Shown here one piece after another: positions 7,901-55,084 of a DNA stretch of 64,000 nt. The stretch is taken from positions 4,165,341 to 4,229,340 of the forward strand of contig OY979730.1 in NCBI GenBank assembly GCA_963855995.1. Direction: 5' to 3'. The DNA comes from Muricea muricata. Lineage: Eukaryota; Cnidaria; Anthozoa; Malacalcyonacea; Plexauridae. The notes under the pieces were generated by a model, which saw nothing but the letters and a program-made list of their open reading frames with translations, searched no databases and had not been told where the DNA came from. Position 1 is the stretch's first letter, and every line of letters begins with the position of its first letter. The translations under genes and the position numbers were made by a program.

Positions 7901-7914
7901 TTTCCGGGGGAAAT

Positions 7915-11065: not shown

Positions 11066-11224
11066 GGTTGAAAAATTTTTCAAAATATTTTTTGTGTGAA
11101 CCTTGCAATTCTTGATGAATTATCCAATAAACATTGACTTTTGTTATGTTAAAAATTGAAAAAGTATTCTCTTATCCCTTATATGTTTATTAATGTGGTC
11201 AAATTTCAAATTGTGGTCTTCTTA

Positions 11225-11740: not shown

Positions 11741-11749
11741 GCTAGCAGT

Positions 11750-12490: not shown

Positions 12491-12499
12491 GCTTGGTAA

Positions 12500-19171: not shown

Positions 19172-19755
19172 AAAAAGGCAATTTAATTTTAATTTTGTGA
19201 ATTTCGATTACAAAACATGCCTTGGACTGTCGACCAATTGATTTCGTCAGGCGATTACAGACTTGTGAGAGGAGGGGGGTAGCCTAATTACTAAAATGTA
19301 GTGAAAAAAGGACTTTCCATCTAATGGTGGGAGCAGGTTGGCGGGAACACTGGAGAATAAAGGTCCTGTCACAATGCAATTTTTCTTGCAACTTGAAATG
19401 CAATTCTACTATTGGGAGATGTAAAATTGGCAAATGCAAGTTTCCATCACAGTTTGCTGGGGTTTTTTAACGTACCAAACATTTGTCACAAATTTACTTA
19501 AGAGTAGATTTTCCCTGTAGCAAAAAAGATGGCAAATGTCGATTTTACCAGAGTGCATGGCAGTCTGAAATTGTTTAAAAAGGCAAATTAACGTCTTTTG
19601 AAGAACAGACAGAAGACAATAGGTTATTTTCACACTTGTGTTAAAATTTCAATCCAGTAGCTTTGTTTCTTGTCATGTTTTCCCACGTATTCTTTCTTGA
19701 TACCTGCAATGCATTCTGGTAAAATCGACATGTCGCCATCTTTTTTGCTACGGTG

Positions 19756-19905
19756 AATGCAAGGAAAAGTGCACCGTGTGACAGGGCCTTAAGGGTAAGA
19801 GGTGGATAGAGAAGGAGACGGAGCAGTTACAAGTGCAAGAAAAATTGCACCGTGTGACAGGGCCTTGAGGGTGGGAGGTGGATAGGAGGAGACGGAGCAG
19901 GATGT
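19756..19905. repeat. Tandem duplication of about 75 bp, left arm only
   Basis: Two consecutive units each contain gcaccgtgtgacagggcctt (starting 19771 and 19847) and a ggtggata-gga-gacggagcag block. The right arm has one unit at about 44918-44990, so the duplication arose, or was lost, after the arms separated. Confidence 0.85.
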
Positions 19906-21176
19906 GGGAGTCGTGCAAGGTCGGGATGTTAAAAAAGAACAAGGAATGTTATGTTTTTAATGCCTTTTAGACTTTTCTTGAGGCAATTAAAATTCAAACT
20001 GTCAAATCCAAACACTGTACAGAATGGCCGACTTTACGTGGTCTTTAGTTTTTACACAACCACTTGCATTGTTATCTTTTGCAGTTTGTTTACCATTTCA
20101 GTTATCTATCTTCAATAGAATTCTTTGAAATTTGTTTGTAGATTGACAAAATGCTTAACCTCCTCTCAACAACTGGCAGATTATGAAAAATGAAATTGTT
20201 AAAGGTATTGGAATATTGCATGTACAATATTGAATATGGGACAATTTGGGACAGTATAATTTTGGACATGACGGTTTCATTCTCACCTAATTTGACGATT
20301 ATTTTGTGGGTACACATACCGTGGAATCTCATGTGCTCCAGAAGCATTTTAATCTTAGAAAAAGTCAAATAATGATGAACTGTGTTTTAAAAGAAAGTTA
20401 GAATCTTATTTGGTTCAAATCAATTGAATTACGGCCCAAGAGTTCATGAAAACACATACAAAAGGCTTTCTTAAAAAACTGAAATATCAAATCTAGCAAT
20501 TTTATATGTTATGCCTCTAAACAACACAATTCTGTTTCTAAAAATTGGTACCCTACTAGACCTATATGCATGATTATACTAATTTGGACATATTTATTTT
20601 TACCCATTAAAATATAAATTTGTGTTTAATCATTCGTGTTTGTCATTATTTGACTTTGTAATGTTGGTTAAACATAAGGAGATTGAGGTGACTTTGCCAG
20701 AAACAAAAACATCCATTATTATACTAAAATTTCAATATATGTAGCAATTAAAACTAACCACAGGAAATATATTTCTACTTTTTAATTGAAATGTTTCTGT
20801 TATATGCACTATATCATATTTTTGATAAAAAATTACAACACCTATGTTATTTCCTGGTTTACTATCTCAATCATCTTTTGTTTAAGCTGGCTTTGAGTGT
20901 TCATTTGAAAGTTTGGAAAGTTCATTTGAAAATCACAATAGTTCTCAATGTTATATTGGACCCTTTAAAGTTAAAAAAATACTTTGTAATATTTTATACT
21001 ACTGGTAATTTATCTTAGATACAGACTTTGTGATTTTGTACTAGAATGTTGACTTTCAAACTTTAAGATGAACTACTTATTAAGGACAAAATAAGCTAGC
21101 ATATTGTCTTTTGTTTACAAAGTGGAACTTGTTTGGAATTGAGATGAACTGATGCAGTTGTTCTTTAACTTTATCA

Positions 21177-21379
21177 ATTAATTACATATCTTAAATGAAA
21201 AAGAAAACCACAACTTGCCAAATAAATTCTGTGGGCTCTTTTTATTAGCAAAGAAAAGATGTGGCAGATGTAAGAATTTAAGAGTAAAAAAGTTTCCTTG
21301 GACTAAAAAAATTGACAGTATGCCAGATTTTCTAGATAAACAAGCAGTACAGATGTTGGCCAATAATAAGTATAAGTAA
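21177..21379 (+). CDS. Unrecognised open frame, mirrored in the right arm
   Basis: A 67-codon open frame ends at TAA 21379 and includes KFCGLFLLAKKRCGRCKNL and KKFPWTKKIDSMPDFLDK. The Cys spacing (CGLFLLAKKRCGRC) is vaguely zinc-ribbon-like. The mirror copy at about 43436-43638 stays open and differs by an Arg to Gly change between two cysteines. It has no ATG near its start, so it could only be an exon or a pseudogene piece. The function is unknown and it may be fortuitous. Confidence 0.2.
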
Positions 21380-22924
21380 CTACAATTTTTAATTTTAAAA
21401 GTTTTCTATTGATGCCTGGATACAGTAAATACTTTACCAGAGTTCTTCGTATTACATCGACTTGAAAAAGTTTTAAGTCACATGAAGCTTTTAGTTGATA
21501 CTATGCAATTTCAAATTTTACAGACTTCTTAATTAACATGCCAAATTTACCTTGTTGAACATAAAGTCTTTCCTGAGAAAAAGTAAAACTGTCTGGCATT
21601 ATATGGAGTAGAATAATTTAAATTAGTTTGAGACTTTGATTTGATAACAATTTTGATTTGTACTATTTACAATACAAGTGACCGGGTTGTATCGGATATA
21701 CAAACCCAAGCTGAAGGCGAGATATCTGACATACACAGATGCGAATGTTGTAAATGGCTTGTGAAACTCGTCAATTTTATACATCAGATCTATAGCAAAG
21801 TGATTTTGAAAATACCGATTCTGTAAGATGAGAAAATGATTTCTTTTGTGTTTCCTGTATGATTTATTACTTTATAAGTTTCTTAATTAAAATTACAACA
21901 TATTGCCTACTGGAACTTTTTATATTGTTTGGTTGTGGTGAATTTGTATTTTGGCAATTGAAATATTTCTGAATTTGTATGTGCATTTCCTTTGCTTCAG
22001 TTCAAGTTTACATTTCAAATATTCCACTTTGTAATACTTGCGTGGTAATAATAATATAAGAAAACAGGTTTACATGGCTCTTGAATATAGTCTTTTCAAC
22101 AAGTAAGTAAAGATGAATTTATACTTCAAAGAGATATGTTCCTAACCTGACAATGGTACCTTCCAAAAAGACTAAATTTAAATTGATTCTTCGAATAAAT
22201 TTTTTACTTTTCAATCCAAGATCAATCTAAGTTATGTATTTCTACTTTTATTTTGGTCTCTTTAACACTGAAACTATCAATTGTATATAAAGCAACTTCA
22301 CTATCGAGTGACTTCATTAGTTGCTGGGCAAAGCCAAAGCATTGATTTTTCGGCTGTTTTCAATGAAAAATAGAATTTTGCCCAAAGTTATCTCAAATAA
22401 ATTATCACAATTTGAACAAAAAGCTTCTGTTCTTGTGCCCACCAGAAAAATGAGATGTCTGAGACTTTCTTTGTATTTTTTTGCGAAAAATAGATCGCAT
22501 GCACTGTTATGCAAAGAAAAGTGTAAGAGATTGGTTTCTGGAAAATGTCGTGCTACACACAATATTCTAAAAATGCTTTGTTTTTATTCTATGTATTTTT
22601 GAATTTTTTGTTACAAAAAATAAAGGTAGCAATGTTTAGTGCATTTCACATTGTCAGGTTAGAAACGCAATAAGAAAAATGTGGCTCCGAACATTACAGC
22701 TTGGTCAATTTGGAATTTATAAAAAAATCGTTTCTTCGTTGTTTTTCGACGTTTTGAAGGGTTGTTTCGAGTACAAAAAAGTATTTTTAGGAAGAATTAT
22801 GTGCCCACGTTACATGTCTCAAAGCCATCAAAATTCGTTGGTAATTCGTGCATGTATTTTTTCTGACTTATAAAAGCACAATTGATTAAAAATAATATTT
22901 TTCTTTTGACAAAAATACCTTTCT

Positions 22925-23045
22925 TCTGTGAGGCTGGCTGTATTTGAAAAAGCGTTGGTCAACGCTCCGCCAAAACTCGTGGGTTTTCTCCGGGTACTCC
23001 GGTTCTTCCCACTGGGAGAGTTGACAGGGTAGTTACATATGGTTA
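22925..23045 (+). repeat. SINE-like 3' fragment (left arm)
   Basis: The stretch gtgggttttctccgggtact followed by ccggttcttccc is the conserved core/tail sequence that recurs in tRNA-derived SINEs of many invertebrates, and a related string lies in the SINE at 28521-28700. No A/B box precedes it. The mirror copy is at about 41770-41890. Confidence 0.45.
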
Positions 23046-23075
23046 TAAAAATGTGACTAACTTTTGAAAACCTTT

Positions 23076-23323
23076 CTACTTAGACTTGTTAAGCCTTCTC
23101 GTCATCTCTATCAGTTGCATGTTTTGAGCCACATGTTTTTCTTTGTAATTGTGAAACAACTCGTTATATGCTGGGTAAACCTTTGCAAAACTCTCAAAAT
23201 TTATCACTTCAAGTTGTTTCATTGTTATAATATATTTTGAAGTATAAACATTTACTTACGTTGAGAAGACCCAAGTTTTTTAGGACTTTGTTCATTCACT
23301 TGTGTTATTGTTCTCTCTGCCAT
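23076..23323 (-). CDS. Candidate small two-exon gene (left-arm copy)
   Basis: This is the mirror of 41492-41739. An ATG frame of 21 codons (MAERTITQVNEQSPKKLG at its start) runs into a good GTAAGT donor. About 40 bp on, a second frame of 48 codons is open to TAG. It is preserved in both arms apart from one residue in the first frame (Ser here, Phe in the right arm). There is no pyrimidine tract before a possible acceptor and no homology known to me. Confidence 0.2.
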
Positions 23324-23514
23324 GTTCTGTTTTCTTCTGTTGTTATTTTAATAAGTACAATGTGTGGTAGTTAATCTCTTTTTATTGTTATTCAAATTGT
23401 ATGTAATCTTTACAAATTTTTTCAATAAATTGTTTACAAAATTTACTTGTGACCCCTTTTTAATTAAAAATTCAATTCCCATGGGAATTGAGAAATTGAA
23501 TAAGCTCCCCAAGT

Positions 23515-23590
23515 GCCACTTCCACCTAAGTAGAAGTACTTATACATGTAGTACAAGTACTTCTACTTATTCACGGTGGAAGTAGCACTC
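23515..23590. repeat. Hairpin, both arms
   Basis: The strings agtagaagtacttatacatg and its near complement acaagtacttctactt form a stem of about 18 bp, flanked by a longer imperfect stem (cttccacc and ggtggaag). The right-arm counterpart lies at about 41215-41280. It sits next to the 20-bp indel that distinguishes the arms (about 24 bp, ending aatccccctaccccgg on the complementary strand, absent from the left arm). Confidence 0.65.
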
Positions 23591-24447
23591 GGAGAACTGG
23601 CCGGGGTAGCCGGCAAAGAGAAGACCAACTTTGCAAGTGCTAATACAATTGCTAAGTTGATCTTCCCTAGAGAGCAGCCGCGCGTACCTAACAAATTAAA
23701 ACAACAAACGTTAGTGACTTAAGTACTTAGCATGCAAATTTGATTCCCAAAGCCAAAATGTCAAGTGCCCCCCGCTGATCCTACCAACTGCCTACCTGCC
23801 TCAGTTCTAAGCTGTCTTCCTCAGTTCTAAGCTCCTGCATTCCATTCGTTACCTTCACTTTCCTCACCATCGCACAGTCACTCACAGCTGATAAATTAAC
23901 CCGCATGCACCACCACCACCCCGACTGCCACCCAATTTCGAAAATTAAAAGAGTTAAAATTTCGGTAAAGTATGCATTTTAAATGCAATTTATTTGGATA
24001 TTTTAGATCAAACGTAAACAGAAAAAGCTCGTACATAAAAACAGGTGAGAATTCTATTTAAAATTTGCTTGCAAAATATAAAACTTAATTCGCATTTTTC
24101 TTAGTTAATAGTATAGATCAATTTAGTTGATGTTGAAACCTACTCTTAACTGTTTTGTTAGAAGTGACGACAGATTTTGGTTTTTAAGCATACTTTCAAA
24201 AATTTTAATTCCTTTAATAAACCTAACCCCATGCAACTTACACACGGCGCACACCCTCGCAGTCCATACATTTAGCTAATAAATTACGTTATAAACAAAA
24301 AAGCAAAATAAAAAGATAAATTACGTTATCTCTAGCTACTTAAACCCACTTAGACTGAGTTTTTGATTGAATTTTCAAACGTAAAACCTTAGCTGAATGG
24401 GCATGGGCTTTTCGTTGTGTTAACTGTTCCGGAGTAAATATAAACCT

Positions 24448-24689
24448 GGGGCCGGTTGTATCAAAGGCGTTTAGCTTAAACGGTGGATAAGTGAAATTTA
24501 AAAATCAGTTTTACACCTAGTACGGAACCGAAATTATGAGTTGAAATAGAATAAATATTTAGTTTTATATATAATTGTTCTTCTCAGGTCAAATAACTTC
24601 AGCTGGTTTGTTTATACAACATGGAAACGTGTTTCATATTTTTGACTTATCCACCGTTTAAGCTAAACGCCTTTGATACAACCGGCCCC
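24448..24689. mobile_element. MITE family M1, left-arm copy
   Basis: This 242-bp element has near-perfect terminal inverted repeats of about 45 bp beginning ggggccggttgtatcaaagg and containing gcgtttagcttaaacggtgg. The interior is AT-rich and non-coding. It is present at the same site in the right arm (40107-40348), so it predates the duplication. A decayed copy lies at 6010-6162. Confidence 0.85.
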
Positions 24690-26329
24690 TGATACTTACC
24701 AAAGTCCAAGGCTGGGTCAAATAAGCATGAGAATTAGGCAAAAATAAAAAGCAATTGAAACTCAACAGATTCACTAAAGTTGTTTTTTTTTTTGGCAACT
24801 TATATCCTTAAGTGTAGATGACATGCAATTTTTAATGCCGTAATTCTCACACTTATTTAACCGAAACGCCTTCATTTGCATGGTACCTCGCAGCTGCTCT
24901 CAAACCACCTTCGTAATTTGCTTTAGTGTACACAAACAATGACTTCATTGTTCCTGCTTACCAAAACAAATCTGAAAGCACCAAGATACTTATCATATTA
25001 ATAATCAAAGAGGATTCGCATTATGCAGTAATTACCATAAACAGACGCATCACCATTGAAACAAAGCATGCCGTATTCCCATGGGAATTTAAAATGCACA
25101 AAAAAATATAATGATCCTACTGATTTGCATGGATGTATGAACCAAATTAGCTAAGAAACAAAGAAATGATATATTCCCTTGGGAATTTAATGTAGCAAAA
25201 AGATGGCGGGTGTTGATTTTACCAGAATGCCTTGCGGTCTGAAATCGTTTAAAAACTTAAGGTAAATTAACCTCGTTTGAGGAACAGACAGATAGGTTAT
25301 TTTGTCACTTGTGTTAAAATTCCGTCCATTAGCTTATCTTAAATATCATTTCACTGGTATTCTTGATTGATACCCGCATTAAATTCTGGTAAAATCGACA
25401 TGCCACCATTTGTTTTGCTACGGTGAATTGGAATACAAGTCACATTTTCTCGCTTTTTAACCAGAGAACACATTCTTTAAAGGTAGAACGACGGAATTGA
25501 TCGTTTGCAATCGACGCCATCTTTGTTGACGTTTGAAACACATGGCAACCACAAAGTATCTATTCATTATATCTGATCCTATCGAGCCATACATCTTTAA
25601 AGTATCATTCATAATACGCTAAAACTAACGATGAAATAGTAAATTGACACTAGTGTTTCGCTGTAAACAGCTGAAGTAATCTGCAGAGTCAACCAAGATG
25701 GCGCCCAATGACACGAAATGACGTCATGTGCAAACCAAGAATAGTGACAAAATGCATCAACTATAATTTAGTGGCATTATTACGAAACTTATTTTTGTAA
25801 AACGTTCAATCCTACATGTTATTTTGTTTTGTTTTTAGAAATATCCAAATCCAAATGTTAGAGACGAAATTTCCAGGCGTTAAGGTATTGTTTCTTTAAA
25901 AAATATTGTCGACATTTACCATATTTTTACCTGTTTTTTGACTCGAAAATTGACTGCCAAACTCCTAGATATTCTATTTAATTATTTTGTTGAATGTATT
26001 TGATATCAATGTTATTTCAATCCAATTTTTTTCACTTAATTTGCTGTCTTTTCTTTTTCATTAACGAGAAATATCTATTAAATCCTCTTTGATCCCTCAA
26101 TAATAAGTATCTTGTTTTCTACTAACTTGCACATTACCACTACTTTCTATTACAATGTCGTGTCTTCTCATTCTTGTGGATTGTTGTTTTGTGGGTCTTG
26201 CCGTCCAGGATCGTTCATTCTTTTCTCTTCTTGTGCGTTTTTTTCACATCCCATCACCCTTTGCAATAGTAGAAAGAATTAAATCATGAGATGATAGTTA
26301 CGAGTAATTTATAAACTATAACATATTAA

Positions 26330-26475
26330 ACAATTATTGGATGAGGTTTTTGTGATATGCGGAATTATCAATGTCGAGGTAAGAGTTATCAGCCGAGCCG
26401 AAGGCGAGTCAGATAACTCTTACCGAGAGATTGATAATTTTGCATATCACAAAAACCGAATCCGATAATTGCTTT
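26330..26475. repeat. Fold-back element with nested hairpin
   Basis: The outer stem pairs ggtttttgtgatatgc with gcatatcacaaaaacc. The inner stem pairs ggtaagagttatc with gataactcttacc around a short agccgagccgaaggcgag loop. The right-arm copy is at about 38185-38325. Confidence 0.75.
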
Positions 26476-26654
26476 ATTATACATTTTAAGTCTTTTTCCT
26501 CGAGCAATTGACGCATTTCGCCCTCGGAAGAGCTTAAAAAGGAAGATGCCATAACATGAAACAGAAAATATCGAAAAAATGTTGTTGCCATGCCAACCAT
26601 TGATGCCAACGAATACCGCATACTGTAATAATCTGCACCGTAGGCTCAACATCC

Positions 26655-26694
26655 AGATAACTCAGTTATCTGCTAGCAGATAACTGAGTTATCT
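26655..26694. repeat. Perfect 40-bp palindrome
   Basis: The half-site agataactcagttatctgct is followed immediately by its exact reverse complement. In the right arm the same palindrome was the target for a 225-bp MITE (37748-37972). Confidence 0.85.
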
Positions 26695-28452
26695 GCAGAT
26701 TGTGTGATAGTCGCATTTATCTGCATACAACTGATCAATCACAACGCATAAAACAACTGCAATGTATAATAAAATAGTTTATTAATTAGGCCGGCCAAAT
26801 TATTGTGTAAGCTGTTAATATGAAATTTTTTTATTAAAATCTCGAGAATCATTAGTAAATCGTGAACAAAACACAAAAGAAAATCATAGCCGTGAAGGAG
26901 TCTTTATTTCTCACACGCACACAACTTGCAGCTACCCTAATTTATGATTTTAAATCAAAATATCTCGAGAATTAAACAACACGTAAGGAATGTGTAAATT
27001 CTTAAAGCTCTTTCAAACAATAAAAATTAATATCTCGCACTAATCTCTCTCAAAAGCTCTCTCAAATTTATTAGCAATATCTCTTCAACTATTACTTTGC
27101 AGGTGAAATGTAACTTCTATCAAAACTAGCTTACTTCAAGTTGTTTGGGAATTAAGATTTTACGTGTCAACGAGATCAAATATGAATCTAAGATGGCAGA
27201 CAGCGCATTAAATTTCTATCTTTACGACCAACTCCCCAGCGAAAGGCTTTAATTCGCTCGAAAGTCGAATTTTGTTTTTTTATTGTTTAATGTAGTGAAA
27301 GATCCTGTGTGCTTTTTACAGCACTGCCAACACTAGCAACGTTAGTGCGAGATGTTAATTTTTATTGAAACGAAAGCTGAACTGCTAAAGAAAATAGAAA
27401 CGACAAGATAAAATCAAAAAACTTACTTTCACTCTATCTTTGGATCTTCTTGGCTTCGGTTGTTCTCGTTTCATCATGCTGTTTATGGTTTCATCTGGTT
27501 GGCGCACTCTCTTCATGGAACATCACGCCGGTCCAGTAGGTAACTAGCTCACTCGTGTCCAGTCAACCAACATAAAATAAGGAGAAAATTAATGTTACAA
27601 AATATTTTAGAATATAAGACACTAAGCGTTAATTGAAATTGACTTTAACAAACCGTACATTGTGATAGTATTTGCATCTTAACATCTGATGGAGACGGCT
27701 TGTGATTTACTTCTTATGTCGATATGAATTCTTTCCCATCTTGTTGCGTCATTAGTTGATGGTTGTTGTATTCACTTTTTACTTGGCATTCTTTGAAAAA
27801 AAAATTACGATGTTCAGAAAACTGTTTACAAGATAAGCAAAGAAAACTACGTTCACAAGCATTAGAGAGGACTAAGTAATTATAATAGGCGTGACAGGTC
27901 ACAGAGGTTAGTCGACGAAGAAACTCATGGACAAATTCCCGGCATGATGATATTCCGATAGCAAGAAGTACAGCAAGTGTAGAACGTGTACGTGTAAGCT
28001 TAAACTGTATCTATGCAACTCCAAGAAAAGCGCAACACAAAATGGCGGAATTTAAAGACATTTCTGGTGTCATTTCCAGTTCCCTAACTTTCGCGGACAA
28101 ATATATTTATATATTTTTCTCAAATTTTTTTGAAGTAAATCTAGATGGATTTTGTGAATAAACAAATTGAAAAAAGTATTGCCCACGTTAGGAAACTAGA
28201 ACGGGCGCCCAAGAATGCCCACAATTTCTCCAATCTGGATTATATTTATTGATTGCGCAAATGACTGATAAAAAATAAGAGAGTAATAAAATACCAAATG
28301 GTTTCCTCTTCAAGATAGTGTCATACATGCGCGCGGCATTTCGGGATATTTGGGAAAACTCATGTTGAAGTTGAACCTAAGGCAACATGCCAAGTACATG
28401 GATGACGCTATCCTGCTCAGGAAACTATTTAGTAATTGTCTTACAAAATGAT

Positions 28453-28778
28453 TACAGTGAAACACAAGTCAACGCCACGGCATTTAAATTTCTCGTGTAG
28501 GATTGTTTGATCCTGCACAGTAATAGCCAAGTGGCGCAATCGTCAGAGCAAACGCCTATCACATGTGAGGTCGTGGGTTCAATCCTTACTTCAGACTCGT
28601 GACACCCATGTGAGGAGTTAGTCAGTCGTGGGTTTATCCCGGGTACTCCGGTTTGCGAATGTTGACTGGATGGTTAAAATTGTAAAATATCAGTAATCAC
28701 CGGAACACGGGTACTTAACTAAACTGCTGACGATGAGGCGGAACTCATAATGAATTAATGAAAATGTGTTTCACTGTA
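28453..28778. mobile_element. MITE with tacagtgaaacac termini, carrying a nested SINE
   Basis: Inverted termini tacagtgaaacac (28453-28465) and gtgtttcactgta (28766-28778) bracket 326 bp. A tRNA-derived SINE lies within. The right arm has the same arrangement at about 35285-35615, so both insertions predate the arm duplication. Confidence 0.6.
28521..28700 (+). mobile_element. tRNA-derived SINE (left arm)
   Basis: An RNA polymerase III A-box-like string (agtggcgcaatcgtcagagc) at 28530-28549 and a B box ggttcaatcc at 28576-28585 have the spacing of a tRNA head. A conserved body follows with gtgggtttatcccgggtact at about 28630. There is no intact cloverleaf and it is followed by SINE body, so it is not a functional tRNA gene. 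The minus-strand mirror has its B box at 35482-35491. Confidence 0.75.
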
Positions 28779-28861
28779 GTTATCATATAATGTAATTGCC
28801 AAGCTGAATGAATAATTCTCCAGTAACTACGTCATATGAATAATTTACAATTATGAGAGTA

Positions 28862-29110
28862 GTGGGGGGGGCAGCATAAAGATTGAAGTAGTGTCAAGGA
28901 AGGGGTACTACCCTGACGGGTACTAGGCGAAGAAGTAGAGTAAACAGGAGGAAGAAAATTAAATTGGAGTAAATAAGGGGGATTGGGGTAAAGAAGGGGA
29001 GAAGCAGGATAAAGAAACCAGTGGAAGGGGGTGCTATCCTGGAAGGAGTACCCGGGAAAGAAGAGGGTGAACAGGAGGAAAAGTAGATTGGAGTACAGAA
29101 AGGGGAAATT
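28862..29110. repeat. Polypurine block, duplicated unit
   Basis: The plus strand is strongly purine-rich. Two diverged units of about 90 bp (about 28898-28985 and 29023-29108) share gtgaacaggaggaa-type and attggagta blocks. The mirror lies at 34948-35200, where the adjoining poly-C tract has expanded to 20 bases against 8 here. Confidence 0.6.
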
Positions 29111-30800
29111 AAACGGATCAGGAAATTCAGACTTGCAATTCAAATGAAAGGCAGCTCATTGGTCATGTAAACACTCGTTAAATCATGGTTCTCGCTTGCC
29201 TTTAGCTTGGAATCATCTTTGAATTTGAACTGAAAGTCTGAATTTGCATGTTTCTTGTATAGAGTGCAGTGTATCAGAACAGAAGAGGTTTTGAAGAAAA
29301 AGAAAGAAAGAATAAAAGTAAGTTAAAATTTGTAAAGAATAATGAAGAAACTATTGGTACAGCACTTGATACATGATGATAATCATCATTATAAACTCTC
29401 TATTAATCGGGGGGGGGGGTATAATAGAGAATTTGCAATGATAGTAAGTATATTGTAATATTTGGGTTTTTACCACTAAATCCTCTTGAAAGTTCTTTTT
29501 GGCTGTGGCTTCTCTCATCACAGTTGTCTGTGCTTGTCTTGCAAAATCTCTGGAATATCTATAACGTGAAGGTCAATATTTAAGATTAGAAAAATAGAAA
29601 CCGTAAAATAGAAAGAAATTAAAATCGTGGCGAATACTTTTTACGGTCTTGCTGGCATGACAAAAAGAGAGTATAGATTTATAAGATCATGTTGATTTAT
29701 CCTTTATCTGAACTATATTTAACTTAGATTTTAAAATAGATTTCACCCTGGTAAGCAGACCGAATGGGTTTTCAAACAAGATAACATTTAATGACTAAAA
29801 CGTGCACAGAATAGTTAGAGAATGCTTACATGTCGAATAAAAATCCAATACTTTTAATGTCCAACTACACAATAGCGATTTTCGTTGCATTTCTAGACTG
29901 GAGAAGAAGACGACGCCATTTTGATTTTGATTTCTCCCGACAACGGCAGATTTGTCTTCGCAATTTTTTTCGATTTCTTCGTCGTTTCAGCTCCAATTTG
30001 CTCGTTGTGTTTCTTTCGTACCTTCCTCGCCATTTCCGTACAACCAATGGACATTTATACTCAAGATTAAGACTGTATTGAGACTTTCAAAATGTTCGTC
30101 AGGAGACATAAAAATCGAAGCTTCTTCTTCGGGTTGCAGAAGCAAATGACGTCAGACGACCTTTGTCCGCCAGCAAATACCCGTATGTATAACATTCAAT
30201 GATCTTTTTAGGAAGCTGAAAATCGGTTTTTATTGCGCGAACGAAGTGTTTTTGCCATTATTTCTTACTCAGGTCTTTCTTCTGCTACTTTACTTCATGT
30301 TTACTTAGGTAACTTGCCAAAAGAAACGCCTGTAAGGGACAATTTTGCAATTTTTTTTATTTGGATGCTGATGAACAAGGGAAGACTCGTTAAAGCTTTC
30401 ATTGGCAAATATCTTTCCCTCCGTGGCCGAGAGGTAAAGACAACTGTCTTGACTTCGATTTTGGGTGGATCGAGGACCGGTCCAGTTCAACTGAGTTTGG
30501 TAAGAATTTAATTCTGATCGATGCTCGATCCACCCAAAACTGAAGTCAAAGCTGGGCGTGGAGTGCAGGAAAACACTAGGCAGTACCGCGAGGCCGAGGA
30601 GGCAAACGTTATTTCCCAGCGTTGTTAACTAATATTTAAGCAAATTTCATTAACTTGACTGTTGGGGACAGACCTGTAGGGTTGGTGCATTGAAGACTTC
30701 TCGTCGTTATTTCCCTTCGTTCAAGAAGACAAGTTGTCTTCATCGAGAAATAACGACGAAAAGACTTCAAGACACCACTAAACCACTACACTTTAAAGCT

Positions 30801-30838
30801 ACAGTGTAGTGGTTTAGCTAGCTAAACCACTACACTGT
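30801..30838. repeat. Perfect 38-bp palindrome
   Basis: The string acagtgtagtggtttagct meets its exact reverse complement at 30819/30820. It is preserved in the right arm at about 33219-33256. A further partial copy of the stem (aaccactacact) lies 15 bp upstream. Confidence 0.85.
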
Positions 30839-30929
30839 GCCAATAATATATGGCTGACTTCTTCCTAACGCTTACGGTACGACCATGGATGCGCAAAGAT
30901 GCGCAAACACATTAAAGCCTTGAAAGCAA

Positions 30930-32310: not shown

Positions 32311-32313
32311 CTA
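31739..32313. other. Single-copy spacer of the giant palindrome
   Basis: This is the 575 bp that is not mirrored. The left arm ends at gcgctcg (31732-31738) and the right arm begins with its complement at 32314. Much of the spacer is a diverged direct copy of 30940-31215 rather than foreign sequence. No gene or RNA is recognised. Confidence 0.85.
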
Positions 32314-35300: not shown

Positions 35301-35366
35301 CATTTTCATTAATTCATTATGAGTTCCGCCTCATCGTCAGCAGTTTAGTTAAGTACCCGTGTTCCG

Positions 35367-35546
35367 GTGATTACTGATATTTTACAATTTTAACCATCCA
35401 GTCAACATTCGCAAACCGGAGTACCCGGAATAAACCCACGACTGACTAACTCCTCACATGGGTGTCACGAGTCTGAAGTAAGGATTGAACCCACGACCTC
35501 ACATGTGATAGGCGTTTGCTCTGACGATTGCGCCACTTGGCTATTA
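35367..35546 (-). mobile_element. tRNA-derived SINE (right arm)
   Basis: This is the mirror of the SINE at 28521-28700, on the minus strand, with the B box complement ggattgaacc at 35482-35491 and the A-box complement near 35520-35540. Confidence 0.7.
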
Positions 35547-35965
35547 CTGTGCAGGATCAAACAATCCTACACGAGAAATTTAAATGCCGTGGCGTTGACT
35601 TGTGTTTCACTGTAATCATTTTGTAAGACAATTACTAAATAGTTTCCTGAGCAGGATAGCGTCATCCATGTACTTGGCATGTTGCCTTAGGTTCAACTTC
35701 AACACGAGTTTTCCCAAATATCCCGAAATGCCGCGCGCATGTATGACACTATCTTGAAGACGAAACCATTTGGTATTTTATTACTCTCTTATTTTTATCA
35801 GTCATTTGCGCAATCAATAAATATAATCCAGATTGGAGAAATTGTGGGCATTCTTGGGCGCCCGTTCTAGTTTCCTAACGTGGGCAATACTTTTTTTAAT
35901 TTGTTTATTCACAAAATCCATCTAGATTTACTTCAAAAAAATTTGAGAAAAATATATAAATATAT

Positions 35966-36352
35966 TTGTCCGCGAAAGTTAGGGAACTGGAAATGACACC
36001 AGAAATGTCTTTAAATTCCGCCATTTTGTGTTGCGCTTTTCTTGGAGTTGCATACATACAGTTTAAGCTCACACGTACACGTTCTACACTTGCTGTATTT
36101 CTTGCTATCGGGGTATCATCATGCCGGGAATTTGTCCATGAGTTTCTTCGTCGACTAACCTCTGTGACCTGTCACGCCTATTATAATTACTTAGTCCTCT
36201 CCAATGCTTGTGAACGTAGTTTTCTTTGCTTATCTTGCAAACAGTTTTCTGAACATCGTAATTTTTTTTTCAAAGAATGCCAAGTAAAAAGTGAATACAA
36301 CAACCATCAACTAATGATGCAACAAGATGGGAAAGAATTCATATCGACATAA
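35966..36352 (+). CDS. Unrecognised 128-codon open frame, right arm only
   Basis: The frame starts MSAKVRELEMTPEMSLNSAI and has a hydrophobic stretch (ILCCAFLGVAYIQF) and several cysteines. In the left arm the same sequence is disrupted, leaving only the last 62 codons open. I recognise no family. Asymmetric preservation and the lack of splice or promoter context make chance likely. Confidence 0.15.
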   Translation: MSAKVRELEMTPEMSLNSAILCCAFLGVAYIQFKLTRTRSTLAVFLAIGVSSCREFVHEFLRRLTSVTCHAYYNYLVLSNACERSFLCLSCKQFSEHRNFFFKECQVKSEYNNHQLMMQQDGKEFIST

Positions 36353-37299
36353 GAAGTAAATCACAAGCCGTCTCCATCAGATGTTAAGATGCAAATACTA
36401 TCACAATGTACGGTTTGTTAAAGTCAATTCAATTAAAGCTTAGTGTCCTATATTCTAAAATATTTTGTAACATTAATTTTCTCCTTATTTTATGTTGGTT
36501 GACTGGACACGAGTGAGCTAGTTACCTATACTGGACCGCCTTGATGCTCCATGAAGAGAGTGCGCCAACCAGATGAAACCATAAACAGCATGATGAAACG
36601 AGAACAACCGAAGCCAAGAAGATCCAAAGATAGAGTGAAAGTAAGTTTTTTTATTTTATCTTGTCGTTTCCATTTTTTTAGCAGTTCAGCTTTTGTTTCA
36701 ATAAAAATTAACATCTCGCACTAACGTTGCTAGTGTCGGTAGTACTGTAAAAAGCACACAGGATCTTTCACTACCTGAAACAATAAAAAAAAACAAAATT
36801 CGACTTTCGAGCGAATTAAAGCCTTTCGTTGGGGAGTTGGTCGTAAAGATAGAAATTTAATGCGCTGTCTGCCATCTTAGATTCATATTTGATCTCGTTG
36901 ACACGTAAAATCTTGATTCCCAAACAGCTTGAAGTAAGCTAGTTTTGATATAAGTTACATTTCACGTGCACAGTAATTCTCAAAGAGATATCGGCAATAA
37001 ATTTGAGAGAGCTTTTGAGAGAGATTAGTGCGAGATATTAATTTTTATTGTTCGAAAGAGCTTTAAGAATTTACACATTCCTTACGTGTTGTTTAATTCT
37101 CGAGATATTTTAATCTAAATTCATAAATTAGGGTAGCTGCAAGTTGTGTGCGTGTGAGAAATAAAGACTCCTTCACGGCTATGATTTTCTTTTGTGTTTT
37201 GCTCACGATTTATTAATGATTCTCGAGATTTTAATAAAAAAATTTCATATTAACAGCTTACACAATAATTTGGCCGGCCTAATTAATACTATTTTATAA

Positions 37300-37653
37300 T
37301 ATACTGAGTGTCAAAGTTCATTTATTCCTGTTTCTTATTGGTTAAGAACGTATCACGTGATAGTGGAGAAATTCTATTGTCTCCCTGGCAACGTAGCTAA
37401 GCGGTGGACATTACTTTTATTCACCGGTAGACAACAAATCCACAAAGCCTCACGTAGCCATGTCAGGTAAAAGGTAATCCTTTTTACACATGTTTGATTG
37501 ATTTGTGGTACTTTTCTTCTCTTTTGGCACTCAGTATATAATAAAATACTTATTGACTGAGACCTCGGGAAAGCAGTATGTTTTGTGGACCCTCGACATC
37601 GACAGTCTCTGGTCCACAAAACATACTGTTTCCCTCGGTCTCAGTCAATAAGT
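37300..37653. mobile_element. Right-arm-specific insertion: MITE plus adjoining hairpin
   Basis: Against the left arm (around 26745-26790) about 360 bp is extra here. The first part (about 37300-37538) has inverted termini tatactgagtgtcaaa and ttttggcactcagtata and sits in a TA-rich site. The second part (37548-37653) is a 106-bp hairpin starting acttattgactgagacc with stems of about 42 bp including cagtatgttttgtggacc. Whether these are one or two insertions is unclear. Confidence 0.7.
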
Positions 37654-37747
37654 GTTAATTACTATACATTGCAGTTGTTTTATGCGTTGTGATTGGTCAG
37701 TTGTATGCAGATAAATGCGACTATCACACAATCTGCAGATAACTCAG

Positions 37748-37972
37748 TCATACAATAAGAATACATAGAAGGGCCACTCAGCAGTGCAACATGTCACACT
37801 ATGTTTATGCAGTTTACTGGCTGCCACCAGCCAGTTCAGCATTCCTATTGGCCAGAAAATGCAATTGACTGGCTGAGAAAATGCTAATAACGTGCGTAAT
37901 GCGACATGCGCGGCTTCAAAAACTCCAAAGGCTCCGACGCGAGTGGCCCTTCTATGTATTCTTATTCTATGG
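37748..37972. mobile_element. Right-arm-specific 225-bp MITE with 5-bp target duplication
   Basis: The element has inverted termini (inner part aataagaatacatagaaggg on both sides) and is flanked by ctcag at 37743-37747 and 37973-37977. The left arm retains the uninterrupted target inside the 40-bp palindrome at 26655-26694. The insertion is therefore younger than the palindrome. The 5-bp duplication limits the superfamily, but I do not assign one. Confidence 0.85.
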
Positions 37973-38348
37973 CTCAGTTATCTGCTAGCAGATAACTGAG
38001 TTGTCTGCATGTTGAGCCTACGGTGCAGATTATTACAGTATGCGGTATTCGTTGGCATCAATGGTTGGCATGGCAACAACATTTTTTCGATATTTTCTGT
38101 TTCATGTTATGGCATCTTGCTTTTTAAGCTCTTCCGAAGGCGAAATTCGTCAATTGCTCGAGGAAAAAGACTTACAATGTATAATAAAGCAATTATCGGA
38201 TTCGGTTTTTGTGATATGCAAAATTATCAATGTCTTGGTAAGAGTTATCTGACTCGCCTTCGGCTCGGCTGATAACTCTTACCTCGACATTGATCATTTC
38301 GCATATCACAAAAACCTCATCCAATAAGTGCTTAATATGTTATAGTTT

Positions 38349-38432
38349 ACTTATTAAGCTTTGTGGAAACACCACGTAAATTTATTATTGCAATAATAAA
38401 TTTACGTGGTGTTTCCACAAAGCTTAATAAGT
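38349..38432. repeat. Perfect 84-bp palindrome, right arm only
   Basis: Forty-two bases beginning acttattaagctttgtgg and ending aaatttattattg are followed with no spacer by their exact complement. The palindrome lies in an insertion of about 134 bp flanked by the 13-bp direct repeat atgttatagttta (38337-38349 and 38471-38483), of which the left arm has one copy. Confidence 0.9.
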
Positions 38433-40106
38433 ATATTGTATTCACCATGCAAACGTACAAGAAACTTATCATGTTATAGTTTATAAATTATTCGTAACTA
38501 TCATCTCATGACTTAATTCTTTCTACTATTGCAAAGGGTGATGGGATGTGAAAAAAACGCACAAGAAGAGAAAAGAATGAACGATCCTGGACGGCAAGAC
38601 CCACAAAACAACAATCCACAAGAATAAGAAGACACGACATTGTAATAGAAAGTAGTGGTAATGTGCAAGTTAGTAGAAAACAAGATACTTATTATTGAGG
38701 GATCAAAGAGGATTTAATAGATATTTCTCGTTAATGAAAAAGAAAAGACAGCAAATTAAGTGAAAAAAATTGGATTGAAATAACATTGATATCAAATACA
38801 TTCAACAAAATAATTAAAAAGAATATCTAGGAGTTTGGCAGTCAATTTTCGAGTCAAAAAACAGGTAAAAATATGGTAAATGTCGACAATATTTTTTAAA
38901 GAAACAATACCTTAACGCCTGGAAATTTCGTCTCTAACATTTGGATTTGGATATTTCTAAAAACAAAACAAAATAACATGTAGGATTGAACGTTTTACAA
39001 AAATAAGTTTCGTAATAATGCCACTAAATTATAGTTGATGCATTTTGTCACTATTCTTGGTTTGCACATGACGTCATTTCGTGTGATTGGGCGCCATCTT
39101 GGTTGACTCTGCAGATTACTTCAGCTGTTTACAGCGAAACACTAGTGTCAATTTACTATTTCATCGTTAGTTTTAGCGTATTATGAATGATACTTTAAAG
39201 ATGTATGGCTCGATAGGATCAGATATAATGAATAGATACTTTGTGGTTGCCATGTGTTTCAAACGTCAACAAAGATGGCGTCGATTGCAAACGATCAATT
39301 CCGTCGTTCTACCTTCAAAGAATGTGTTCTCTGGTTAAAAAGCGAGAAAATGTGACTTGTATTCCAATTCACCGTAGCAAAACAGATGGTGGCATGTCGA
39401 TTTTACCAGAATTTAATGCGGGTATCAATCAAGAATACCAGTGAAATGATATTTAAGATAAGCTAATGGACGGAATTTTAACACAAGTGACAAAATAACC
39501 TATCTGTCTGTTCCTCAAACGAGGTTAATTTACCTTAAGTTTTTAAACGATTTCAGACCGCAAGGCATTCTGGTAAAATCAACACCCGCCATCTTTTTGC
39601 TACATTAAATTCCCAAGGGAATATATCATTTCTTTGTTTCTTAGCTAATTTGGTTCATACATCCATGCAAATCAGTAGGATCATTATATTTTTTTGTGCA
39701 TTTTAAATTCCCATGGGAATACGGCATGCTTTGTTTCAATGGTGATGCGTCTGTTTATGGTAATTACTACATAATGCGAATCCTCTTTGATTATTAATAT
39801 GATAAGTATCTTGGTGCTTTCAGATTTGTTTTGGTAAGCAGGAACAATGAAGTCATTGTTTGTGTACACTAAAGCAAATTACGAAGGTGGTTTGAGAGCA
39901 GCTGCGAGGTACCATGCAAATGAAGGCGTTTCGGTTAAATAAGTGTGAGAATTACGGCATTAAAAATTGCATGTCATCTACACTTAAGGATATAAGTTGC
40001 CAAAAAAAAAAAACAACTTTAGTGAATCTGTTGAGTTTCAATTGCTTTTTATTTTTGCCTAATTCTCATGCTTATTTGACCCAGCCTTGGACTTTGGTAA
40101 GTATCA

Positions 40107-40348
40107 GGGGCCGGTTGTATCAAAGGCGTTTAGCTTAAACGGTGGATAAGTCAAAAATATGAAACACGTTTCCATGTTGTATAAACAAACCAGCTGAAGT
40201 TATTTGACCTGAGAAGAACAATTATATATAAAACTAAATATTTATTCTATTTCAACTCATAATTTCGGTTCCGTACTAGGTGTAAAACTGATTTTTAAAT
40301 TTCACTTATCCACCGTTTAAGCTAAACGCCTTTGATACAACCGGCCCC
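40107..40348. mobile_element. MITE family M1, right-arm copy
   Basis: This is the mirror of 24448-24689, with the same 242-bp length and intact inverted termini, at the orthologous position of the right arm. Confidence 0.85.
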
Positions 40349-41491
40349 AGGTTTATATTTACTCCGGAACAGTTAACACAACGAAAAGCCCATGCCCATT
40401 CAGCTAAGGTTTTACGTTTGAAAATTCAATCAAAAACTCAGTCTAAGTGGGTTTAAGTAGCTAGAGATAACGTAATTTATCTTTTTATTTTGCTTTTTTG
40501 TTTATAACGTAATTTATTAGCTAAATGTATGGACTGCGAGGGTGTGCGCCGTGTGTAAGTTGCATGGGATTAGGTTTATTAAAGGAATTAAAATTTTTGA
40601 AAGTATGCTTAAAAACCAAAATCTGTCGTCACTTCTAACAAAACAGTTAAGAGTAGGTTTCAACATCAACTAAATTGATCTATACTATTAACTAAGAAAA
40701 ATGCGAATTAAGTTTTATATTTTGCAAGCAAATTTTAAATAGAATTCTCACCTGTTTTTATGTACGAGCTTTTTCTGTTTACGTTTGATCTAAAATATCC
40801 AAATAAATTGCATTTAAAATGCATACTTTACCGAAATTTTAACTCTTTTAATTTTCGAAATTGGGTGGCAGTCGGGGTGGTGGTGGTGCATGCGGGTTTA
40901 TCAGCTGTGAGTGACTGTGCGATGGTGAGGAAAGTGAAGGTAACGAATGGAATGCAGGAGCTTAGAACTGAGGAAGACAGCTTAGAACTGAGGCAGGTAG
41001 GCAGTTGGTAGGATCAGCGGGGGGCACTTGACATTTTGGCTTTGGGAATCAAATTTGCATGCTAAGTACTTAAGTCACTAACGTTTGTTGTTTTAATTTG
41101 TTAGGTACGCGCGGCTGCTCTCTAGGGAAGATCAACTTAGCAATTGTATTAGCACTTGCAAAGTTGGTCTTTTCTTTGCCGGCTACCCCGGCCAGTTCTC
41201 CGAGTGCTACTTCCACCGTGAATAAGTAGAAGTACTTGTACTACATGTATAAGTACTTCTACTTAGGTGGAAGTGGCACTTGGGGAGCTGGCCGGGGTAG
41301 GGGGATTTTTTTTATTCAATTTCTCAATTCCCATGGGAATTGAATTTTTAATTAAAAAGGGGTCACAAGTAAATTTTGTAAACAATTTATTGAAAAAATT
41401 TGTAAAGATTACATACAATTTGAATAACAATAAAAAGAGATTAACTACCACACATTGTACTTATTAAAATAACAACAGAAGAAAACAGAAC

Positions 41492-41739
41492 ATGGCAGAG
41501 AGAACAATAACACAAGTGAATGAACAAAGTCCTAAAAAACTTGGGTCTTTTCAACGTAAGTAAATGTTTATACTTCAAAATATATTATAACAATGAAACA
41601 ACTTGAAGTGATAAATTTTGAGAGTTTTGCAAAGGTTTACCCAGCATATAACGAGTTGTTTCACAATTACAAAGAAAAACATGTGGCTCAAAACATGCAA
41701 CTGATAGAGATGACGAGAAGGCTTAACAAGTCTAAGTAG
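41492..41739 (+). CDS. Candidate small two-exon gene (right-arm copy)
   Basis: Exon 1 (41492-41555) would encode MAERTITQVNEQSPKKLG plus three residues and end in phase 1 at a GTAAGT donor. A downstream frame (41593-41739) encodes 48 residues including NFESFAKVYPAYNELFHNYK, then a Met-rich helix-like end and TAG. Joining at an AG at 41607-41608 keeps frame and gives about 64 residues. Composition is protein-like and the left arm keeps both frames with a single residue change, but recent duplication alone could explain that, and the acceptor is poor. No family is recognised. Confidence 0.25.
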
Positions 41740-44700
41740 AAAGGTTTTCAAAAGTTAGTCACATTTTTATAACCATATGTAACTACCCTGTCAACTCTCC
41801 CAGTGGGAAGAACCGGAGTACCCGGAGAAAACCCACGAGTTTTGGCGGAGCATTGACCAACGCTTTTTCAAATACAGCCAGCCTCACAGAAGAAAGGTAT
41901 TTTTGTCAAAAGAAAAATATTATTTTTAATCAATTGTGCTTTTATAAGTCAGAAAAAATACATGCACGAATTACCAACGAATTTTGATGGCTTTGAGACA
42001 TGTAACGTGGGCACATAATTCTTCCTAAAAATACTTTTTTGTACTCGAAACAACCCTTCAAAACGTCGAAAAACAACGAAGAAACGATTTTTTTATAAAT
42101 TCCAAATTGACCAAGCTGTAATGTTCGGAGCCACATTTTTCTTATTGCGTTTCTAACCTGACAATGTGAAATGCACTAAACATTGCTACCTTTATTTTTT
42201 GTAACAAAAAATTCAAAAATACATAGAATAAAAACAAAGCATTTTTAGAATATTGTGTGTAGCACGACATTTTTCAGAAACCAATCTCTTACACTTTTCT
42301 TTGCATAACAGTGCATGCGATCTATTTTTCGCAAAAAAATACAATGAAAGTCTCAGACATCTCATTTTTCTGGTGGGCACAAGAACAGAAGCTTTTTGTT
42401 CAAATTGTGATAATTTATTTGAGATAACTTTGGGCAAAATTCTATTTTTCATTGAAAACAGCCGAAAAATCAATGCTTTGGCTTTGCCCAGCAACTAATG
42501 AAGTCACTCGATAGTGAAGTTGCTTTATATACAATTGATAGTTTCAGTGTTAAAGAGACCAAAATAAAAGTAGAAATACATAACTTAGATTGATCTTGGA
42601 TTGAAAAGTAAAAAATTTATTCGAAGAATCAATTTAAATTTAGTCTTTTTGGAAGGTACCATTGTCAGGTTAGGAACATGTCTCTTTGAAGTATAAATTC
42701 ATCTTTACTTACTTGTTGAAAAGACTATATTCAAGAGCCATGTAAACCTGTTTTCTTATATTATTATTACCACGCAAGTATTACAAAGTGGAATATTTGA
42801 AATGTAAACTTGAACTGAAGCAAAGGAAATGCACATACAAATTCAGAAATATTTCAATTGCCAAAATACAAATTCACCACAACCAAACAATATAAAAAGT
42901 TCCAGTAGGCAATATGTTGTAATTTTAATTAAGAAACTTATAAAGTAATAAATCATACAGGAAACACAAAAGAAATCATTTTCTCATCTTACAGAATCGG
43001 TATTTTCAAAATCACTTTGCTATAGATCTGATGTATAAAATTGACGAGTTTCACAAGCCATTTACAACATTCGCATCTGTGTATGTCAGATATCTCGCCT
43101 TCAGCTTGGGTTTGTATATCCGATACAACCCGGTCACTTGTATTGTAAATACTACAAATCAAAATTGTTATCAAATCAAAGTCTCAAACTAATTTAAATT
43201 ATTCTACTCCATATAATGCCAGACAGTTTTACTTTTTCTCAGGAAAGACCTTATGTTCAACAAGGTAAATTTGGCATGTTAATTAAAAAGTCTGTAAAAT
43301 TTGAAATTGCATAGTATCAACTAAAAGCTTCATGTGACTTAAAACTTTTTCAAGTCGATGTAATACGAAGAACTCTGGTAAAGTATTTACTGTATCCAGG
43401 CATCAATAGAAAACTTTTAAAATTAAAAATTGTAGTTACTTATACTTATTATTGGCCAACATCTGTACTGCTTGTTTATCTAGAAAATCTGGCATACTGT
43501 CAATTTTTTTAGTCCAAGGAAACTTTTTTACTCTTAAATTCTTACATCCGCCACATCTTTTCTTTGCTAATAAAAAGAGCCCACAGAATTTATTTGGCAA
43601 GTTGTGGTTTTCTTTTTCATTTAAGATATGTAATTAATTGATAAAGTTAAAGAACAACTGCATCAGTTCATCTCAATTCCAAACAAGTTCCACTTTGTAA
43701 ACAAAAGACAATATGCTAGCTTATTTTGTCCTTAATAAGTAGTTCATCTTAAAGTTTGAAAGTCAACATTCTAGTACAAAATCACAAAGTCTGTATCTAA
43801 GATAAATTACCAGTAGTATAAAATATTACAAAGTATTTTTTTAACTTTAAAGGGTCCAATATAACATTGAGAACTATTGTGATTTTCAAATGAACTTTCC
43901 AAACTTTCAAATGAACACTCAAAGCCAGCTTAAACAAAAGATGATTGAGATAGTAAACCAGGAAATAACATAGGTGTTGTAATTTTTTATCAAAAATATG
44001 ATATAGTGCATATAACAGAAACATTTCAATTAAAAAGTAGAAATATATTTCCTGTGGTTAGTTTTAATTGCTACATATATTGAAATTTTAGTATAATAAT
44101 GGATGTTTTTGTTTCTGGCAAAGTCACCTCAATCTCCTTATGTTTAACCAACATTACAAAGTCAAATAATGACAAACACGAATGATTAAACACAAATTTA
44201 TATTTTAATGGGTAAAAATAAATATGTCCAAATTAGTATAATCATGCATATAGGTCTAGTAGGGTACCAATTTTTAGAAACAGAATTGTGTTGTTTAGAG
44301 GCATAACACATAAAATTGCTAGATTTGATATTTCAGTTTTTTAAGAAAGCCTTTTGTATGTGTTTTCATGAACTCTTGGGCCGTAATTCAATTGATTTGA
44401 ACCAAATAAGATTCTAACTTTCTTTTAAAACACAGTTCATCATTATTTGACTTTTTCTAAGATTAAAATGCTTCTGGAGCACATGAGATTCCACGGTATG
44501 TGTGCCCACAAAATAATCGTCAAATTAGGTGAGAATGAAACCGTCATGTCCAAAATTATACCGTCCCAAATTGTCCCATATTCAATATTGTACATGCAAT
44601 ATTCCAATACCTTTAACAATTTCATTTTTCATAATCTGCCAGTTGTTGAGAGGAGGTTAAGCATTTTGTCGATCTACAAACAAATTTCAAAGAATTCTAT

Positions 44701-45570
44701 TGGAGATAGATAACTGAAATGGTAAACAAACTGCAAAAGATAACAATGCAAGTGGTTGTGTAAAAACTAAAGACTACGTAAAGTCGGCCATTCTGTACAG
44801 TGTTTGGATTTGACAGTTTGAATTTTAATTGCCTCAAGAAAAGTCTAAAAGGCATTAAAAACATAACATTCCTTGTTCTTTTTTAACATCCCGACCTTGC
44901 ACGACTCCCACATCCTGCTCCGTCTCCTTCTCTATCCACCTCTTACCCTTAAGGCCCTGTCACACGGTGCACTTTTCCTTGCATTCACCGTAGCAAAAAA
45001 GATGGCGACATGTCGATTTTACCAGAATGCATTGCAGGTATCAAGAAAGAATACGTGGGAAAACATGACAAGAAACAAAGCTACTGGATTGAAATTTTAA
45101 CACAAGTGTGAAAATAACCTATTGTCTTCTGTCTGTTCTTTAAAAGACGTTAATTTGCCTTTTTAAACAATTTCAGACTACCATGCACTCTGGTAAAATC
45201 GACATTTGCCATCTTTTTTGCTACAGGGAAAATCTACTCTTAAGTAAATTTGTGACAAATGTTTGGTACGTTAAAAAACCCCAGCAAACTGTGATGGAAA
45301 CTTGCATTTGCCAATTTTACATCTCCCAATAGTAGAATTGCATTTCAAGTTGCAAGAAAAATTGCATTGTGACAGGACCTTTATTCTCCAGTGTTCCCGC
45401 CAACCTGCTCCCACCATTAGATGGAAAGTCCTTTTTTCACTACATTTTAGTAATTAGGCTACCCCCCCTCCTCTCACAAGTCTGTAATCGCCTGACGAAA
45501 TCAATTGGTCGACAGTCCAAGGCATGTTTTGTAATCGAAATTCACAAAATTAAAATTAAATTGCCTTTTT

Positions 45571-55074: not shown

Positions 55075-55084
55075 ACATGAGGTT

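Follow-up and report, generated by a model that had tools for sequence, protein, structure and literature searches.

Instability is expected of long palindromes, and rolling-circle transposons are assumed to pass through a single-stranded DNA stage. According to the excerpt of PMC4067079 available to us, Helentrons and their non-autonomous forms, the HINEs (DINE-1 elements), carry palindromic subterminal repeats of 12-15 bp, which lie 2-4 nt from the 5' end and, in mite families, approximately 38-60 bp from the 3' end. In the same excerpt, a 3' palindrome is located approximately 8-35 bp from the end in mite families, tandem repeats occur in some copies, and insertion takes place in T-rich targets, with at least 2 T at each end and the target otherwise unmodified (PMC4067079). 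Here, we analyzed a 64-kb stretch of Muricea muricata DNA (the window, C15:4165341-4229340 in a 453-Mb assembly of 74 contigs), which contains a 26-kb palindrome. This palindrome is probably the body of a giant non-autonomous Helentron-type (HINE) rolling-circle transposon. The basis for this reading is evident from the assembled sequence: the unit opens with a HINE 5' end and closes with a complete HINE that lies in the right arm's outer T-run, its ends bear the Helentron signature flanked by TT and by no longer repeat, and approximately 270 centres are dispersed.

Geometry and ends of the palindromic element

A preliminary description of the window had reported a palindrome with arms of 12.6-13.3 kb and a spacer of 575 bp, and self-comparison together with arm alignment bore this out. 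Self-BLAST and global alignment paired the left arm (arm A, 19172..31738, plus strand, 12,567 bp) with the reverse complement of the right, inverted arm (arm B, 32314..45570, minus strand, 13,257 bp) around the 575-bp spacer (31739..32313, plus strand). Summed over five collinear BLAST pieces, the arms show 131 mismatches in 12,636 aligned columns, which corresponds to a divergence of approximately 1% (approximately 99% identity), and the global alignment revealed an extra 134, 230, and 363 bp in arm B as well as an extra 74 bp in arm A. Divergence is uneven, amounting to approximately 0.4-0.5% in the outer 7 kb and peaking at 26.0-28.2 kb (1.6-4.9% per 500-column block) and at 30.2-30.7 kb (3.4%). 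Since small insertions and deletions are fewer than substitutions, the pattern of differences between the arms does not look like raw-read error. No N is present anywhere in the window, and the same is true for the other loci fetched. The spacer has a short inverted match, CGAGCGCCAAGCTT, at its edge, and its segment 31797-32114 is a diverged copy (83%) of an arm unit at 30893-31207.

Positions 19172 and 45570, which had been taken as the outer edges, were rejected as the ends of the element, because homology among copies extends to 18048 and 51904. The whole mobile unit in its LR form (18048..51904, plus strand) consists of a 5' end (L), the palindrome, and a complete HINE with the 3' end (R). 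Its ends were determined from copy comparison and from the TT/ACTCCGCC...CTTG/TT boundaries (slashes mark boundaries), and it measures 33.9 kb, or approximately 29.4 kb without nested transposons (29,456 bp with slightly different nested boundaries). The L end, TT/ACTCCGCCTGCCGTAGGCGAGGCGGAGT (18048-18077), opens the HINE 5' part (18050..18456, plus strand), which matches a free HINE on C1 (L074) at 98.3% identity along 412 bp. A 12-bp palindromic subterminal repeat, TT-ACTCCGCCTGCC, lies 2 nt from the 5' end inside a 28-base imperfect palindrome (ACTCCGCCTGCC-GTAGGC-GAGGCGGAGT, 18050..18077, plus strand, with TT directly before it), and its inverted copy, GGCAGGCGGAGT, is found at the opposite end (51869..51880, plus strand). 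The HINE 5' part is followed by X (18457..19171, plus strand), the outermost arm sequence, which is present on both sides in LL copies, that is, those with an L end on either side, and has lost its right-side copy here.

On the right, the complete HINE (45571..51904, plus strand) that is the source of the 3' end is located at the arm's T6 run, contains a 31-bp minisatellite (46904..47277, plus strand), and carries nested transposons. The R end, GGCAGGCGGAGTGAACGCCTTAGCAGGCGTCTTG/TT (51869-51904), includes a 3' hairpin (ACGCCT-TAGC-AGGCGT, 51883..51898, plus strand) that stops 4-6 nt short of the 3' end. This R end follows the arm end (45570) in the window and in 4 of 5 other copies; the fifth, at C9:11121832, carries an L end at either side. 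Where outer arms lack a HINE, the site is GCCTTTTTTCAATAAA in the three that were read, a reading shared by arm A of the window, versus GCCTTTTT/ACTCCGCC at R-type junctions. A complete HINE thus sits exactly in the T6 run of the arm, as HINEs insert, and everything distal to it has been lost, namely X (715 bp) and the second L end.

All 6 R-bearing palindrome insertions read start with TT/ACTCCGCC and finish with CTTG/TT. A 34-base R-end pattern, allowing up to 3 mismatches, was found at 1212 places (control, 0), and the 4 further R ends that were read (three on C1 and one on C2) all belong to ordinary free HINEs of 1.2-2.2 kb with a TT/ACTCC start and a CTTG/TT finish. When the 6 R-bearing insertions and the 4 free HINEs are taken together, 9 of 10 have TT as the repeat directly adjoining the two boundaries, and the tenth has TTT. 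Furthermore, one empty site was identified: at C7:10379k, a palindrome lies within the arm of an older element, and its two flanks, once joined, line up with the young arm without a break. The T-run at this site counts 5 when empty versus 7 when occupied, a change that is weak alone, as the old arm is just approximately 65-83% identical to the young one. The ends match the published Helentron/HINE anatomy, except for the 3' repeat at 24 nt and the hairpin at 4-6 nt from the end.

Dispersed copies and their genomic setting

The palindrome is not a product of chance. A 37-base pattern over the junction of left arm and spacer, allowing up to 3 mismatches, was found at 270 places genome-wide, compared to 0 for the reversed-pattern control, and the arm/HINE junction pattern was found at 176 places (control, 0). 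The 801-bp centre, including both inner arm ends, was recovered at full length and 100% (rounded) identity in 40 of 40 scored places, with the window among them; these are the best 40 of 1328 first-look candidates, and copies also yield partial matches, so this does not amount to a copy count. From these places, 40 kb around each of five other copies were fetched, and all 5 carry the same, whole palindrome, with approximately 95-99.9% identity per aligned piece and with small gaps and insertions relative to that of the window.

The 100 exact centres listed are located on C3 (2), C4 (14), C5 (28), C6 (24), C7 (20), and C8 (at least 12), and the 100 exact arm/HINE junctions listed on C3 (3), C4 (15), C5 (19), C6 (10), C7 (16), C8 (8), C9 (19), and C10 (at least 10). 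Among these matches, which comprise exact copies only, C1 (124.2 Mb) and C2 (71.7 Mb), which are the largest scaffolds and together make up 196 Mb, hold neither a centre nor an arm/HINE junction, and C3 holds few of either. Exact HINE 3' ends are present on both (83 on C1 and at least 17 on C2), and therefore C1 and C2 share the HINE transposon family with the other scaffolds.

Helitron_like_N matches are abundant in the genome (the best 150 of 352 candidates were scored). C1 holds 105 of the 150 scored matches, many of them in open frames of 1000-2700 aa. Within this scored set, rolling-circle transposase genes are thus concentrated on C1, the scaffold without listed palindromes. The 11 arm open reading frames (ORFs) that were scanned, of 83-130 aa, gave no match above the Pfam cut-off, and the window contains no tRNA and no RNA family at gathering scores. 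The exact 3' end was found in none of the viral contigs. No palindromic, giant, or inverted Helitron has been described in the literature searched, which consisted of titles and abstract starts, mostly without subscription papers and preprints.

Two transposons are nested in the HINE, both without an assigned strand: a miniature inverted-repeat transposable element (MITE, 45589..45931) with inverted ends ACAGATTACTATTG and a flanking 9-bp direct repeat, GCCGTAGGC, and a 4-kb transposon (47734..51781) with inverted ends of approximately 300 bp and a flanking 11-bp direct repeat, TGGACAGAACA. The latter is lacking at the corresponding point in the 4 other LR copies read. It itself contains a 3.3-kb transposon (48035-51318) and a self-complementary stretch (51314-51484), and the MITE, whose ends are 98.8-100% alike to those of the 3.3-kb transposon, looks like an internal-deletion derivative of it. 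Outside the mobile unit, paralogous exons with approximately 45-65% protein identity are located on the minus strand in both flanks (1-15000 and 53100-59000); those of the left flank match SUEL lectin and SRCR (both above the Pfam cut-off) and F5/8 type C (below the cut-off), a set that fits an animal, perhaps a cnidarian. The element seems to be placed between or inside tandem copies of one gene family.

Exchange between arms, overruns, and age

For the 12 arms of six copies, all 10,395 possible pairings were enumerated. In the interval 19930-21900, the true arm pairing ranks best of 10,395, and in 22900-26300 it is among the best 303, versus 28500-31700, where 8265 of the 10,395 pairings are at least as good as the true one. 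In several copies, the outer arm is thus subject to conversion, and the inner arm keeps two arm types common to the copies. The preliminary description had proposed an inverted duplication maintained by arm-to-arm conversion. The duplication is indeed real, and conversion is found in the family; what does not hold is the implied single locus, given the approximately 270 dispersed centres. In the window itself, the two arms are no more alike in 19930-21900 than are arms from different copies (5.1 differences per 1000, compared to a between-copy mean of 5.0).

Of 88 exact centres on C3-C7, 57 have an exact arm/HINE junction on one side, 1 has it on both sides (C3:19905871), and 30 have it on neither. 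Among the 57, the orientation of the spacer relative to the R end is split 40:17, with the window in the minority. Crossing-over or copying between the arms would explain the spacer flips as well as the copy with two R ends (RR).

Seven pairs of L ends located 28 kb apart were seen in the best 40 of 923 X candidates and were thereby selected for identical ends. At all 7 loci, the fetched 301-base stretches are mutually inverted (99.3-100%), and in 6/6 of these LL loci with the L end read, the inverted similarity extends into the flank. At C6:585k, the fetched stretch is part of a different transposon's copy (1,941 bp, 100%) and is thus uninformative on overrun. The inverted flank measures approximately 0.5 kb at C8:11768k (82% over the whole match), approximately 2.6 kb at C8:11157k (96.8%, partly satellite), and approximately 4.6-4.9 kb at C6:12171k (99.6%, then 96% and 84%, nearly reaching the limit of the fetched 5 kb). 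The inverted flank at C7:5138k measures 3.7 kb, with a 3,842-bp inverted match (99.97%) that starts inside the L end, and is followed by a short filler resembling the adjacent minisatellite and then by a HINE remnant with the 3' end CTTG/TT. Such fillers are typical of end joining by polymerase theta. Moreover, the flank at C7:5138k belongs to an older palindrome, so that what is called "host DNA" also covers old members of the family. An exact arm/HINE junction is located approximately 1 kb beyond the second L end at C7:4112k. These loci resemble LR insertions in which the HINE side had broken and was repaired by copying the other arm outward through L into the flank, followed by end joining. 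For the LL copy at C9:11121832, overrun is not a sufficient explanation, as its flanks (approximately 5 kb each) have no detectable similarity. As side observations, a satellite-like array with copies approximately 82-84% alike lies beside an overrun palindrome (C8:11137000-11142228), and the flanks of the LR copy at C9:12986k (outer flanks L009 and L012) are partly mutually inverted in repetitive sequence, with 95% identity over 418 bp, then 88%, and an offset of approximately 200 bp.

An old palindrome is located at C7:5117964-5123802; its arms are 74-85% identical in four main pieces over approximately 2.1 kb per side, and they are 67-85% identical to the young arms. A second one lies within C7:10357427-10364926, its left arm comprising just 528 bp (72%). 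Both old centres are at the same arm position (reference 12735), approximately 520 bp outward of the young centre. Judged by the divergence of their arms, these palindromes show that the palindromic form is old in the family. In addition, the young elements at C4:1388k, C7:5138k, and C7:10379k lie within or next to diverged arms that belong to older family members.

Mechanism, alternative explanations, and known systems

If the palindrome is the body of a giant HINE, a Helentron Rep/helicase acting in trans would start at the left 5' end, halt at the HINE 3' hairpin, and carry the entire 26-kb palindrome along. Prior to the landing of the HINE, the element would have had a symmetric form, with 5' ends on both sides and without a 3' end. 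Most simply, we infer that a HINE inserted into this symmetric L...L form and that the LR unit then arose from a rolling-circle event running from the far L end to the HINE 3' end. The palindrome itself might first have originated from fold-back priming at the short inverted match of the spacer edge; CGAGCGCCAAGCTT fits such priming and may instead record a later change of the centre. Remodelling by break-induced copying between the arms could then have homogenized the outer arms and produced the spacer flips, the end swaps (LR, LL, and RR), and, at some loci, the run-out into host DNA.

Several points weigh against this interpretation. A 29-kb palindrome passing through single-stranded DNA would self-fold, which is mechanistically awkward, and a 3' end is lacking in LL copies, of which at least C9:11121832 nevertheless lies between flanks without similarity. 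A 2-bp duplication of TT cannot be told from T's borne by the element. Between the 3' subterminal repeat and the 3' end lie 24 nt, compared to approximately 38-60 nt in published mite HINEs, a value for mites that is not stated as a rule for the superfamily. In a comparison confined to C1 and exact ends, none of the 83 exact 3' ends has any of the 105 listed Helitron_like_N matches of this scaffold on the element side within 40 kb. Furthermore, the inner arms (28500-31700) are not closer within copies, and even in 19930-21900, the own partner is nearest in just 8 of 12 arms, neither window arm being among them. The giant HINE reading also becomes slightly weaker, and that of an assembly artefact slightly stronger, because C6:585k shows no overrun and because the end of the inverted flank at C6:12171k is beyond the stretch followed.

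Such an artefact, either a head-to-head join of haplotypes, as the preliminary description had considered, or an assembler fold-back at a non-palindromic repeat, would at first sight be in line with the inverted flanks at 6/6 LL loci with the L end read, which resemble fold-back contigs. We consider it very unlikely, as judged from the assembled sequence. The flanks of the window are not inverted copies of each other, apart from a single 31-bp match, and both the centre and the arm/HINE junctions recur at distinct loci. The arms differ mostly by substitutions and large insertions, no locus fetched contains an N, and an old, diverged palindrome of the family exists. Moreover, the inverted flanks come to an end at C8:11768k, C8:11157k, and C7:5138k, in the last case at a filler junction with a HINE remnant, and an assembler fold-back would be expected to continue rather than to stop at such a junction. 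The spacer of 575 bp with CGAGCGCCAAGCTT at its edge is reminiscent of human fold-back duplications, as far as the excerpt consulted describes them (PMC3907307), and could, together with the arm-to-arm conversion present in the family, be taken for a unique fold-back inverted duplication at this locus that gene conversion has kept alike. We give this explanation almost no credence: with the same junction at approximately 270 centres and the whole palindrome at five other places, fold-back duplication is refuted as a single-locus event, and it survives solely as the origin of the family's ancestor.

The long inverted arms, the dispersed copies, and the lack of recognized coding capacity among the ORFs tested would also be compatible with a Foldback-like cut-and-paste DNA transposon with extreme terminal inverted repeats, such as Galileo or FB. 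Insertion of a transposon of this type generates a target-site duplication longer than 2 bp. Against such an element, the flanking repeat is not longer than TT in any of the 6 R-bearing insertions read, the empty site shows a change in the T-run alone, and LR copies (the window and 4 of 5 others) have two different ends with HINE-type anatomy. LL and RR copies also exist. We regard a Foldback-like element as highly improbable. It is distinctly unlikely, too, that LL copies are the true transposition unit, with two 5' ends and hairpin-type replication, and that LR copies were derived from them. The LL copy between dissimilar flanks at C9:11121832 and the 30 of 88 exact centres without an exact HINE junction on either side speak for this possibility. 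Against it, those 30 centres may merely have a mismatched junction, one of the five LL loci with flanks followed (C7:5138k) retains a HINE remnant, an exact HINE junction is found outside the LL end at C7:4112k, and some LL copies look like converted LR copies. Finally, the family might represent a long-lived lineage in which the giant palindrome is a working part: a double-ended (5'-5') element with self-primed hairpin replication that re-acquires its 3' end from HINEs, has its flanks rewritten by arm-to-arm copying, and is confined to one host chromosome class. We regard this scenario as unlikely.

A 26-kb palindrome with Helentron-type ends at approximately 270 places implies that such transposons either carry giant hairpins or move by another route. 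The copies constitute a natural replicate series for the behavior of palindromes, including conversion gradients along the arms, flips of the spacer, exchanged end types, and overruns into the flanks, where a repair junction can be read in at least one case. Because overruns can mimic assembler fold-backs, assemblies of animals with such elements need care.

Sex-chromosome palindromes likewise have arms that are kept alike by conversion, but they are often gene-bearing, locus-specific, and not mobile. Galileo generates target duplications and has arms much shorter than those described here. In the portion of the literature on Galileo and Foldback of Drosophila that was consulted, these elements share with the present family the long inverted arms, a high recombination potential, and, for the first-described elements, the lack of coding capacity (PMC2775673). 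Galileo is placed there in the cut-and-paste P superfamily (PMC2775673). The present family differs in its insertion into T-runs and in the two different ends of LR copies. Human fold-back inverted duplications resemble the palindrome in the short inverted sequence at the spacer boundary; in the excerpt at hand they are one-off chromosomal events, in contrast to the dispersed mobile family of this study (PMC3907307). The likeness to HINE/DINE-1 elements, within the excerpt cited at the outset, comprises the 12-bp palindromic subterminal repeats with the 5' copy 2 nt in, the 3' stem-loop, T-run insertion with at least 2 T per side and the target otherwise unaltered, internal tandem repeats, and no coding capacity found (PMC4067079). 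The differences are the position of the 3' repeat, 24 nt from the end here, relative to that excerpt (PMC4067079), and the size, which is approximately 29 kb with a 26-kb palindrome as its body, compared to 1.2-2.2 kb in the four free HINEs read in this study.

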